A stretch of DNA of 49,906 nucleotides from a virus, in the IMG/VR virus record IMGVR_UViG_3300013094_000079, positions 1 through 49,906 of that record; one strand, given 5' to 3'. The translations under genes were made by a program, and so were the position numbers. Below are positions 1 to 49,906 of this stretch, in pieces. Under the pieces are notes generated by a model, which worked only from the letters and a program-made list of their open reading frames with translations, was not told the DNA's origin and made no database searches. Each line of letters begins with the position of its first letter. Within the stretch, counting starts at the first letter, position 1.

Positions 1-1266
1 CGTCTTATTATCAATATGGCTCCTCGGCATACTAAGTCTGAGTTTGCATCTTACCTTTTGCCTAGTTGGTTCCTTGGTAACTATCCTGATAAAAAAGTTA
101 TCCAGTCGAGTAACACTGCCGATCTGGCTGTTGGATTTGGTAGAAAAGTTCGTAATTTGGTGGATAGCGAGCAATACGATTCTATCTTTCCTGGTATTGC
201 TTTGGCTGCTGACAGTAAGGCCGCTGGTAAGTGGAACACCAATGCTCAGGGGGAGTATATTGCAATTGGTGTAGGGGGTACGATGACGGGTAAGGGTGCG
301 GACTTAATGATCATAGATGATCCTCATTCGGAGCAAGAGGCTAGGTTGGCTCAAGGAGATCCGACTGTTTTTGATTCTGTGTTTGAATGGTATACGTCTG
401 GGCCGCGTCAGCGTTTGCAGCCGGGTGGGAGGATAGTGATTGTGATGACTCGTTGGTCTGATAAAGATTTAACGGGGAAGATACTTAGGAACGCGGCGGG
501 TGAGGATTGGGAAGTTATAGAGTTGCCTGCAATTATGCCGTCTGGTAATCCGTTATGGCCTGAGTTTTGGCCGCTTAAAGAGTTGATGTCGGTGAAGGAG
601 GAGATTGGTGTTTATAAATGGAACGCCCAGTACCAACAGCAACCGACGGGAGAAGAGGGTGCAATTATTAAGCGGGAATCGTGGAAGAGGTGGAAGAGTG
701 ATATGCCGCCGCCTTGTGATTTTATTATTCAGAGCTGGGATACGGCGTTTACAAAATCGGAGCGGGCGGACTATTCTGCGTGTACGACCTGGGGTGTGTT
801 TAGTTTAAATGAAGACCCAACTGATAAGCATATTATTCTTCTTGATGCGTATAGAGATAAGTTGGAGTTTCCAGAATTAAAGAAAGCGGCACTAGAAGGA
901 TATAAGGAGTGGCAGCCGGACGCGTTTATTGTTGAAGCAAAAGCTGCTGGTGCGCCGTTGGTTTTTGAATTAAGATCTATGGGTATTCCGGTCAGTGAAT
1001 ATACGCCGACCCGCGGGAACGATAAGTTTGTACGTCTAAACAGCGTGGCGGATTTATTTTCTAGTGGAAAAGTCTGGGCGCCAGATAAGAGGTGGGCGGA
1101 TGATGTGATTGAAGAGATGGCGAGGTTTCCTAATGCGGAGCACGATGACTATGTGGATAGTTCAAGCCAGGCATTGATCAGGTTTCGACAAGGTGGGTTC
1201 TTAAGACTTCCAAGTGATGAGGAAGATGAGCCTAAATATTTCAGACGCAAGAAAGCATATTATTAA
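1..1266 (+). CDS. terL: Terminase large subunit, 5' end outside window
   Basis: This is the ATPase-nuclease motor that pumps phage DNA into the prohead and cuts the concatemer. The reading frame is open to base 1, and five codons precede the ATG at 16, so the true start lies upstream. A Walker A-like PRHTKSE sits at visible residues 8-14, which family alignments place near residue 50-80, so roughly that many residues are missing. Walker B (IIDDP) follows near residue 104. The C-terminal RNase H-like nuclease is marked by D247 in SWDTAF, E312 in IVEAKAAG and the acidic HDDYVD near 381-386. The 3' end is complete and the next gene starts 8 bases on. The Walker A has T in place of the usual G before KS, which is tolerated in this family. 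Assignment is secure. Confidence 0.95.
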   Translation, partial: RLIINMAPRHTKSEFASYLLPSWFLGNYPDKKVIQSSNTADLAVGFGRKVRNLVDSEQYDSIFPGIALAADSKAAGKWNTNAQGEYIAIGVGGTMTGKGADLMIIDDPHSEQEARLAQGDPTVFDSVFEWYTSGPRQRLQPGGRIVIVMTRWSDKDLTGKILRNAAGEDWEVIELPAIMPSGNPLWPEFWPLKELMSVKEEIGVYKWNAQYQQQPTGEEGAIIKRESWKRWKSDMPPPCDFIIQSWDTAFTKSERADYSACTTWGVFSLNEDPTDKHIILLDAYRDKLEFPELKKAALEGYKEWQPDAFIVEAKAAGAPLVFELRSMGIPVSEYTPTRGNDKFVRLNSVADLFSSGKVWAPDKRWADDVIEEMARFPNAEHDDYVDSSSQALIRFRQGGFLRLPSDEEDEPKYFRRKKAYY

Positions 1267-48736: not shown

Positions 48737-49024
48737 ATGAGGCGTGCAAATCGTATTGATGAAAACCAAAATATTATTGTTGAGGCCCTACGCAAATCAG
48801 GGGCTTATGTGCGCATTGTGACGATGGGGGACGGCGTGCCTGATCTTTTGGTGGGATATAAGGGATACACATTGCTTTTAGAAGTAAAAGACGGTGATAA
48901 AGCTCCAAGCAAAAGAAAACTTACCGAGGCGGAGCAGAAGTTTTTTGATGAATGGACGGGCGGTTTATTGGCGGTAGTGGAATCTGTTGAAGATGCTCTT
49001 GCAATTTTGAAAGCTTGCGAATAG
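48737..49024 (+). CDS. VRR-NUC domain nuclease
   Basis: 95 residues from ATG 48737 (AAAAGG upstream); the earlier in-frame ATG at 48611 would run through the promoter and palindrome. Motifs of the VRR-NUC fold (PD-(D/E)XK superfamily): helix RIDENQNIIVEALRKSGAYV, G33-V-P-D36-LLVG, and E49-V-K51 (LLLEVKDGDKAPS), then KLTEAEQKFFDEWTGGLLAVV. Stand-alone phage proteins of this kind act in DNA processing and are related to Holliday-junction resolvases. A strong terminator follows. High confidence. Confidence 0.88.
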   Translation: MRRANRIDENQNIIVEALRKSGAYVRIVTMGDGVPDLLVGYKGYTLLLEVKDGDKAPSKRKLTEAEQKFFDEWTGGLLAVVESVEDALAILKACE

Positions 49025-49070
49025 AATGAAGTTTGATTGTTTTTTAGTTCCTTTTTTGATTGATGGTTTT

Positions 49071-49102
49071 TAGGGGTGTCTAACGGCATCCCTATTTTTT
49101 TT
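49071..49102 (+). terminator. Rho-independent terminator after the VRR-NUC gene
   Basis: TAGGGGTGTC (49071-49080) pairs with GGCATCCCTA (49085-49094) in 10 bp with two G-U pairs around a TAAC loop, followed by eight T (49095-49102). It isolates the downstream noncoding region from the nuclease transcript. Confidence 0.85.
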
Positions 49103-49113
49103 GTATACTACGA

Positions 49114-49214
49114 TTGTTGGTGTGTACTGGGTTAGCGCCAATACAATTCTGGTGTTAAAAAATCAGGAAAATGGATCGGGTTAAGAAAACACTGCTTTAT
49201 GTGAACACCAACAA
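49114..49214 (+). ncRNA. Candidate structured RNA A
   Basis: No convincing gene. A 10-bp closing stem, TTGTTGGTGT (49114-49123) with ACACCAACAA (49205-49214), encloses a hairpin TTAGCGCCA (49132-49140) / TGGTGTTAA (49150-49158) containing two G-U pairs. An alternative TGGTGTT/AACACTG pairing is also possible. A TTGTATACT box (49101-49109) just upstream gives a -10 site without a clear -35. G-U pairs favour RNA over DNA function. Pairings were read by eye. Confidence 0.4.
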
Positions 49215-49245
49215 CTTACAAGACTACAAATATTTTTACTTGGGT

Positions 49246-49275
49246 TTGACACAGCCTGAAATTGTTTGCTATACT
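49246..49275 (+). promoter_or_regulatory. Strong sigma-70 promoter in the noncoding region
   Basis: TTGACA (49246-49251), 18-base spacer, TATACT (49270-49275). Transcription would begin near 49282, directly before the three-way-junction RNA and with no start codon and ribosome site combination downstream before the terminator. Confidence 0.7.
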
Positions 49276-49281
49276 AATCGC

Positions 49282-49393
49282 ACAGCAAGGCGTGGAAACC
49301 AAGCTTAAGAGTCGTTAATGAAATCCCGACCCCGAATGGGGTGTCGTACCAAAAGTATGATTTTCCACCGGGGTTTCATTAACGGCTTTTTTT
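49282..49393 (+). ncRNA. Candidate small RNA with three-way junction and own terminator
   Basis: About 112 bases from the expected start to a T-run. Arms 49311-49328 and 49369-49386 pair over 18 bp with two G-U wobbles, the first being GTCGTTAATGAAATCCCG. Inside are hairpins ACCCC-GAAT-GGGGT (49329-49342) and TCGTAC-CAAAA-GTATGA (49344-49360), so the whole folds as a three-way junction. Seven T (49387-49393) follow the closing stem, giving an intrinsic terminator. No coding potential. It matches no RNA family I can recall. A regulatory or decoy RNA is possible; function is unknown. Confidence 0.6.
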
Positions 49394-49412
49394 ATTGTCT
49401 TTCCACTTTTAC

Positions 49413-49650
49413 TGTCGTACTCCGCACGATAGCAGTGTGCCTAAATGGGCAGCCCGGAGTAGAACATACGGCTACCAAACACCCGGTAGATCCGTCCTAG
49501 CCTGTTAGCGAGGGACTAGACAAGATACAGTGAAAGCGGTGGGACAAGCGCTGTATCGAGTGAATCGCTACCTCAATGGAATCTTGGGTTTAGCCTTTGA
49601 ATAAATCAAGTGAGCTACGCTGGAGAGGGGCAGGAAGCCAGGCTATCCAC
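49413..49650 (+). ncRNA. Candidate larger structured RNA region
   Basis: No credible gene in this stretch. Several helices can be read in order: TACTCCG (49418-49424)/CGGAGTA (49455-49461); ACGG+CTACC (49468-49476)/GGTAG (49485-49489)+CCGT (49492-49495); CTAG-CCT (49497-49503)/AGG...CTAG (49511-49519); GATACAGTG (49524-49532)/CGCTGTATC (49549-49557); TAGCCT (49591-49596)/AGGCTA (49640-49645). The loop of the third hairpin has TAGCG (49506-49510), complementary to CGCTA (49566-49570), a possible pseudoknot. Such density suggests an ornate phage RNA. It lies after the terminator of the preceding small RNA, so it needs read-through or another promoter; extent is approximate. Confidence 0.45.
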
Positions 49651-49688
49651 CCTTGGGGAACTTAAAAACGACAAATGCAACACATGGG

Positions 49689-49716
49689 TTGACTACAGAA
49701 CAATCTATTGTATACT
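49689..49716 (+). promoter_or_regulatory. Promoter for the last small gene
   Basis: TTGACT (49689-49694), 16-base spacer, TATACT (49711-49716), within CTATTGTATACT. A similar CTATTGTATTCT occurs at 48685-48696 and TTGTATACT at 49101-49109, so this may be a phage-specific promoter type. AAAAAGGAG before the ATG at 49736 completes the unit. Confidence 0.6.
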
Positions 49717-49735
49717 TCACGAAAAAGGAGAACAA

Positions 49736-49906
49736 ATGAACGAAGAATATGCTTTTCATTCACCGCATAAGCCAAATGTTAAATTCAGACTTGGTAAAGA
49801 TAGCAACATAATTTTTCACTGCCATGTACCAAAGCCGCCCAATGCTTTTCAACGATGGATGTTAAGAACATTGCTAGGAATTTATATGGAGTTAATAAAT
49901 GACTAA
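49736..49906 (+). CDS. Small conserved phage protein
   Basis: 56 residues from ATG 49736 (AAGGAG eight bases upstream) to the TAA that ends the window. The earlier in-frame ATG at 49610 would run through the promoter, so it is not used. The sequence contains AFHSPHKPNVKFRLGKD, then FHCHVPKPPNAFQRWM and LRTLLGIYMELIND. It looks like a small early protein of podoviruses; no domain or function was recognised. The two His and one Cys in FHCH could bind metal. Confidence 0.65.
   Translation: MNEEYAFHSPHKPNVKFRLGKDSNIIFHCHVPKPPNAFQRWMLRTLLGIYMELIND

Follow-up and report, generated by a model that had tools for sequence, protein, structure and literature searches.

A phage region with three separate structured RNA modules, one of which joins a constant head to exchanged bodies

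The prohead (packaging) RNA of phi29, a phage sRNA with pairing between a loop and a remote single strand, is known only from phi29-type phages. Betaproteobacteria-1 (RF02932), which Rfam lists as an sRNA, is an orphan family whose function is unknown. In GOLLD RNAs one end is conserved and the other varies, and tRNA islands lie near GOLLD and ROOL alike (PMC12286853). The putL and putR RNAs of HK022, which are about 70 nt long and fold into two stem-loops, lie immediately downstream of early promoters and need no phage protein for their action (PMC9378689). Here we analyse a region of a viral record of 49,906 bases (the window, meaning this whole stretch of DNA) that contains three RNA modules, blocks 1, 2 and 3; no described phage RNA of such a kind was found in the open-licence literature searched. 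Like GOLLD and ROOL, the RNAs of this locus are phage-encoded and pseudoknotted, have no known function and in some cases have tRNA genes nearby. However, blocks 2 and 3 (110 and 250 nt) are three to eight times smaller, many GOLLD members exceeding 800 nt, the conserved end is 3′ in GOLLD and 5′ in block 3, and the Rfam models of GOLLD and ROOL find no match in the window. An earlier note on this DNA had named these RNAs as the nearest idea while claiming no homology; they serve as an analogy of kind only, no match of sequence or covariance model having been found. Similarly, block 1 resembles the put RNAs as a short structured phage RNA that stands behind promoters and is repeated within a genome, but it is a three-way junction of about 100 nt with an unrelated core. 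Indeed, the two-stem-loop put fold is matched by none of the three blocks, and only the position near promoters agrees. Block 2 shares with the phi29 prohead RNA a loop paired with a distant strand, and differs from it in having its own terminator stem and, in its relatives, no known place beside packaging genes. Betaproteobacteria-1 takes the slot behind block 2 that block 3 takes in the window, as confirmed by Rfam in four loci (L315, which is MW202545, at L315:14131-14248; L209; L254; L273). It has a different consensus structure from block 3, is 120 nt long and lacks the H1-H2-PK1 head described below, and the RF02932 model matches neither block 3 nor anything elsewhere in the window.

The window carries phage genes, with terminase, portal and head genes in its left part and an ERF annealing protein, a PD-(D/E)XK exonuclease and a VRR-type nuclease in its right part. 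About 300 N-terminal profile positions of PHROG 38 are missing from the terminase ORF (window positions 16-1266), so that the gene probably continues beyond the end of the contig; the genome may form a circle in which the RNA locus precedes terminase by some genes. About 630 bases without a conserved gene (49103-49735) lie within the following borders:

48737 to 49024, + strand: VRR-NUC or Holliday-junction-resolvase-like nuclease gene (matches to PHROG 93 and 5702)
49071 to 49101, + strand: intrinsic terminator closing the nuclease transcript (10-bp stem at 49071-49094, then a T run)
49689 to 49716, + strand: promoter of the downstream small gene (TTGACT-N16-TATACT, 10 of 12 positions; identical in the relatives L003 and L149)
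49736 to 49906, + strand: small ORF of 56 aa with an AAGGAG site in front

The earlier note had described these bases as a long noncoding region between a strong terminator and a small gene. The borders and the absence of a convincing gene were both corroborated. The longest ORF within the region has 60 aa (49318-49500), and only 10 of 76 relatives keep its frame open over 55 codons; an open frame of any kind across block 2 plus 240 nt was seen in 4 of 75 relatives, as against about 5 expected from shuffles; and among relatives of block 3 the open frames are scattered over five different frames, none of which is open in the window. The 56-aa ORF has no match in PHROG or Pfam. ARAGORN predicted no tRNA or tmRNA gene in the window, none of the 4227 models of Rfam 15 matched it at or above the gathering score, and a scan of 49000-49906 at E ≤ 10 gave chance-level matches only, the best of which, to a miRNA family, reached 25.4 bits where the gathering score is 54. 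These searches support the earlier note in its view that the sequence matches no recognised RNA class. A single long RNA is not supported. Comparative evidence shows that the region consists of three separate modules read from the + strand, and these occur independently and in differing order in other phages. Using the nuclease as query we collected 69 related viral loci, against which local BLAST found parts of the region kept, not as one unit, and the modules are found again in considerably more than a hundred related phage contigs. The limits of the three foldable blocks given in the earlier note were right to within a few bases.

The fold energy of the whole region is lower than chance (z = -4.6), as it is for block 1 (z = -2.2) and above all block 2 (z = -8.5); since block 3 reaches only z = -1.1, the argument for that block is built on covariation and not on energy. 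In all three blocks base pairing is far better than in shuffled or slid controls, and G-U cells greatly outnumber A-C cells (216:29 in block 2, 156:8 in block 3 and 109:14 in block 1). This excess, which fits an RNA read from the + strand in block 2, argues for selection on RNA rather than on DNA symmetry, just as the earlier note had supposed from the G-U pairs. Covariation, a significant Rfam match and coding conservation, which that note had put forward as ways of overturning its claims, were all looked at: covariation is present, and strong in blocks 2 and 3, and the other two were not found. We regard the conserved folds of the locus RNAs as close to certain.

49115 to 49214, + strand: block 1, a three-way-junction RNA element (outer-stem pairing, hairpin C covariation)

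Block 1 consists of an outer stem (49115-49124 with 49205-49214), hairpin A (49125-49145, with a GGGUUAGCGCC core) and hairpin C (49190-49203, CACUGCUUUAUGUG). A pattern search of viral contigs returned at least 120 stretches, with at least 110 distinct forms among the loci compared. Across 110 distinct relatives the outer stem, the sequence of which differs in nearly every copy, pairs over a mean of 11.6 bp, a value that falls to 1.5 bp once partners are exchanged at random between copies. Hairpin C reads either CAC/GUG or CGC/GCG, its middle pair being A-T in 92 relatives and G-C in 18, with no other combination. Several phages carry more than one copy (three in L124; two each in L121, L149, L257, L303, L118, L089 and L202), and copies are found behind -10-like boxes, directly before genes or between blocks 2 and 3. 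Block 1 appears as a dispersed, multi-copy phage element with the fixed core GGGUUAGCGCC ... CRCUGCUUYAUGYGA, often immediately before genes. For example, it precedes a glutaredoxin-like ORF, identified by eye, in L202 and L262, and a hairpin module, CAACACGCAUGGGGAUUG ... CAGUCCCCAUUCGUGUUG, joins successive copies at L124:1400-1700 (- strand), L149:3880-4150 and L121:6300-6500. A kissing contact between its two hairpin loops (AGCG with UGCU), of the type seen in purine riboswitches, is conceivable, and the element may be a regulatory leader or a spacer.

49246 to 49275, + strand: promoter of block 2 (TTGACA-N18-TATACT, 11 of 12 positions; position conserved in 68 of 76 relatives)
49280 to 49393, + strand: block 2, a stand-alone sRNA of about 110 nt (63-sequence alignment; covariation)
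49292 to 49298, + strand: 5′ strand of the block 2 pseudoknot, GUGGAAA, pairing with 49362-49368
49362 to 49368, + strand: 3′ strand of the block 2 pseudoknot, UUUCCAC, pairing with 49292-49298

Block 2 folds into a 5′ hairpin followed by a terminator stem of about 20 pairs (49308-49327/49370-49389), which encloses one GACCCC/GGGGU hairpin and one variable hairpin and runs into a T run at 49387-49393. A pattern search of viral contigs gave at least 120 stretches, some of them by chance, and filtering for the T run left 79 instances from all loci, two of which were discarded as chance. Because the search pattern fixed GACCCC, GGGGT and CACCGGGG, invariance in those columns is uninformative; the compensating pairs lie outside them. 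In 63 distinct sequences 93.2% of cells are paired, compared with 82.4% in shuffles and 32-58% in slid registers, 296 cells are changed on both sides as against 89, and the covariation score is 0.355 as against 0.160. The pseudoknot, in which the 5′ loop GUGGAAN forms seven pairs with NUUCCAC beside the terminator stem, is paired in 99.1% of cells and shows compensatory changes in three pairs (G-C to A-U; A-U to G-C or C-G; and G-C, A-U, C-G and U-A). The promoter is conserved as well: a -35/-10 pair lies just upstream in 68 of 76 relatives, where 11 were expected and at most 20 occurred in 100 shuffles. This agrees with the TTGACA-N18-TATACT promoter that the earlier note had placed inside the region. 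Both of the strong promoters it counted were found (11/12 and 10/12), although by count alone promoter-like sites are weak evidence, with four in the region against 1.9 ± 1.4 in shuffles.

Model R1 scores block 2 of the window at 83.7 bits, and a block 2 match was present in 33 of 40 whole records searched, at one + strand place each, the extra matches being the same place read on the opposite strand. Searched with R1, 379 Pseudomonadota genomes yielded nothing. All ten pattern matches in bacterial genome contigs were rejected as chance, being GC-rich and without stem or T run. Block 2 is also absent from the cultured phages AP1, PS-1 and Shpa, which were found through their helicase and nuclease, and the APEC phage, found in the same way and scanned by regular expression for block 1 and the head of block 3 only, gave no match. 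A conserved UUUUCCAC behind the terminator was considered as a partner for the block 2 loop and set aside, as by eye it does not covary with the loop variants.

49415 to 49666, + strand: block 3, a pseudoknotted RNA of about 250 nt made of a head and a type-A body (34-sequence alignment)
49416 to 49468, + strand: head of block 3, with H1, H2 and PK1 (39 heads collected by block 2 alone)
49469 to 49674, + strand: body of block 3 and spacer, the exchanged segment (no similarity to L003/L149, both flanks aligning)
49506 to 49511, + strand: 5′ strand of pseudoknot PK2, partner 49565-49570 (paired in every sequence, 100%)
49538 to 49542, + strand: GGUGG strand of pseudoknot PK3, partner CCACC at 49647-49651 (per-sequence and fixed-column pairing)

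A pattern search of viral contigs for the block 3 head returned at least 119 stretches. Aligned over 34 type-A sequences, block 3 has ten helices including three pseudoknots, with 95.1% of cells paired, where shuffles give 76.6% and no slid register exceeds 47%. Both partners are changed in 314 cells as against 98, and the covariation score is 0.489 as against 0.154. In the head, hairpins H1 (49416-49418/49426-49428) and H2 (49438-49441/49448-49451) are accompanied by PK1, which joins the H1 loop (49421-49424) to 49455-49458. As PK1 was part of the search pattern, we tested it on 39 distinct heads gathered only for following block 2. Indeed, it has 21 compensatory cells there, compared with 3 expected and a maximum of 11 in 1000 shuffles; its pairs vary as U-A/C-G/A-U, C-G/G-C, C-G/U-A and G-C/A-U/U-A/C-G, and loop and partner change together (CUCCG/CGGA, CUCCA/UGGA, CCCUC/GAGGG, ACCUC/GAGGU). 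PK2 has five varying pairs, four of them compensatory (CG/UA/UG, AU/UA, GC/AU, CG/UG, GC/UA). For PK3, 170 of 170 cells are paired if the partner register is chosen per sequence, a choice that favours pairing, and 87.6% with fixed columns; its variants include GGTGA/TCACC, GGTGG/CCACC, GGAGG/CCTCC and GGGTG/CACCC. In the window block 3 lacks a clear terminator, and no promoter lies between blocks 2 and 3. Two likenesses were discarded, as connectivity differs and Rfam gives no match: group II introns, brought to mind by GGGUGCAACUCCC in some bodies, and the pistol ribozyme, by its hairpin loop pseudoknot.

Close relatives keep the head of block 3 and replace its body. L003 and L149, in which the nuclease protein is 89% identical to that of the window, are about 81-82% identical to it in DNA over the nuclease gene, a portion of block 1, the whole of block 2 and the head as far as 49468. 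Similarity then ends, and returns at 49675-49728 with 54 bases that are 100% identical. These alignments show an exchanged body flanked by a head and a promoter that were both retained. This natural swap shows head and body to be separable modules, and the role of large phage RNAs thereby becomes directly testable by exchange. The same 5′ head is in fact common to the type-A sequences and to several groups without detectable similarity behind it. Among 77 loci chosen solely for their block 2, about 49 have the common head in the slot that follows it, 10 have the unrelated type F, 8 the unrelated type G and 6 Betaproteobacteria-1, the rest being unclassified; these classes are rough, having been assigned by regular expression with L258 and L273 corrected by hand. 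Types F (CTATCGGG...; L008, L015, L026, L032, L033, L213 and L253) and G (GCGGYRCGTCGGTGGTGG...; L191, L203, L225 and L268) are themselves conserved occupants of the slot. The orphan family Betaproteobacteria-1 thus gains a locus context, and these results suggest that searching directly behind block 2 would yield more unknown phage RNAs. In Acidovorax phage AP1, Betaproteobacteria-1 lies behind the primase gene, and RF02932 gave one sub-threshold match in the 379 Pseudomonadota genomes. Betaproteobacteria are suggested as hosts only by this family and by phage AP1. In MW202545 five tRNA genes (L315:13381-13862) lie directly upstream of block 2 and Betaproteobacteria-1, and a tRNA gene likewise stands just upstream of block 2 in L011. 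UOF78434.1 (MW202545, L315:13968-14195), annotated as a hypothetical protein, covers block 2 together with some of Betaproteobacteria-1, and the ORF is probably spurious.

In the relatives the locus lies within the region of recombination and replication genes and on the same strand as the replication genes, at no fixed operon position. Genes for a ParB-like protein, SF2 helicase and Toprim primase are neighbours in many relatives. The locus stands in front of the ParB-helicase-primase genes in many relatives; in L315, L317, L318 and L330 it stands behind them. This varying position argues against an antiterminator fixed at an operon start and for a mobile RNA gene locus. Large genes behind block 3 in some loci had first been read as a terminase or late operon with block 3 as its leader, and this was dropped because those genes turned out to encode ParB-like protein, helicase and primase, and because the position varies. 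In the window the downstream ORF has its own promoter-like site behind block 3, so block 3 need not be its mRNA leader.

We tentatively favour, at a little short of an even chance, a locus of independent structured RNAs that act in trans early in infection, in which a common docking head is combined with a target-specific body. Block 2, which possesses every element required of an autonomous RNA gene, would be an independent sRNA that starts at a strong promoter and stops at a terminator stem, both its own, with its fold locked by the pairing of the 5′ hairpin loop with the strand at the head of that stem. Block 3 would most likely be made by RNA polymerase reading through the block 2 terminator; with no promoter between the two blocks, read-through from the block 2 or the block 1 start is the simplest source. 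The constant head would then dock on a partner common to all, while the target, either a host factor or a defence, would be set by the body, which phages swap as a cassette. Such a combination of invariant head and exchangeable bodies suggests a shared handle with variable function, and the early-region position together with mosaic exchange is compatible with host takeover or counter-defence. Drift and recombination without target specificity would also generate such a diversity of bodies, and since the RNAs lie on the same strand as their neighbour genes, a role within an operon transcript is possible. A bolder form of the proposal, which we hold as doubtful, is an RNA "cassette locus" in which unrelated bodies are recombined behind a constant sRNA and a pseudoknotted head, so that RNA rather than protein would form the exchangeable effector layer; Betaproteobacteria-1 would be one effector, and others could be, for example, anti-defence or host-takeover RNAs.

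An unlikely alternative, though the best of those weighed here, is cis-acting processive antitermination, in which block 1 or the block 3 head would bind elongating RNA polymerase, as HK022 put does, and allow it to pass terminators such as that of block 2 into downstream genes. Block 1 directly behind -10-like boxes, directly before genes and in more than one copy in several phages would suit such a role, as would the precedent of putL and putR with their small size, promoter-proximal position and independence of phage proteins (PMC9378689), and the strong terminator of block 2 stands directly before block 3. Yet block 3 lies behind this terminator and not before it, blocks 2 and 3 are single-copy and sit at differing operon positions before or after the replication genes, the downstream gene of the window has a promoter of its own, and the two put stem-loops are unlike all three folds. 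Less probable again are RNA-only assemblies or scaffolds like GOLLD and ROOL, with the loop-junction pairing of block 2 and the PK1 loop as intermolecular contacts. The phage origin, the several pseudoknots, a size that is large for the genome and the tRNA genes beside the locus in MW202545 and L011 recall those families, in which GOLLD has its conserved and variable ends and both lie near tRNA islands (PMC12286853); against this, the RNAs are much smaller than the >800 nt of many GOLLD members, Rfam matches neither family, and covariation cannot separate intramolecular from intermolecular contacts. Transcripts that prime or regulate phage DNA replication, as a structured pre-primer like ColE1 RNA I / RNA II, are improbable despite the ParB-like, helicase and primase neighbours in many relatives, for no iterons were seen on reading the region, the window has no sharp GC-skew turn, no antisense partner was found, and mutually unrelated bodies are unexpected for an origin. 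Symmetry selected in DNA, as a packaging site, protein-binding palindromes or ssDNA hairpins, is already largely refuted and scarcely credible. The long perfect arms of block 2 would form cruciforms too, but the excess of G-U over A-C, the pseudoknots and the conserved promoter and T run speak against it.

Whatever their role, block 1, block 2, and block 3 with its head amount to at least three well-supported RNA families. Their secondary structure is clear, several pseudoknots are present, and the members number in the hundreds. All three are absent from Rfam 15 and new relative to it as searched, the literature covered being open-licence papers. In the cultured temperate Pseudomonas phage PS-1, the interval between cro and the helicase gene holds a 614-nt gene-free, repeat-rich stretch (L339:8379-8991), which has the look of a further large structured RNA in a similar position.
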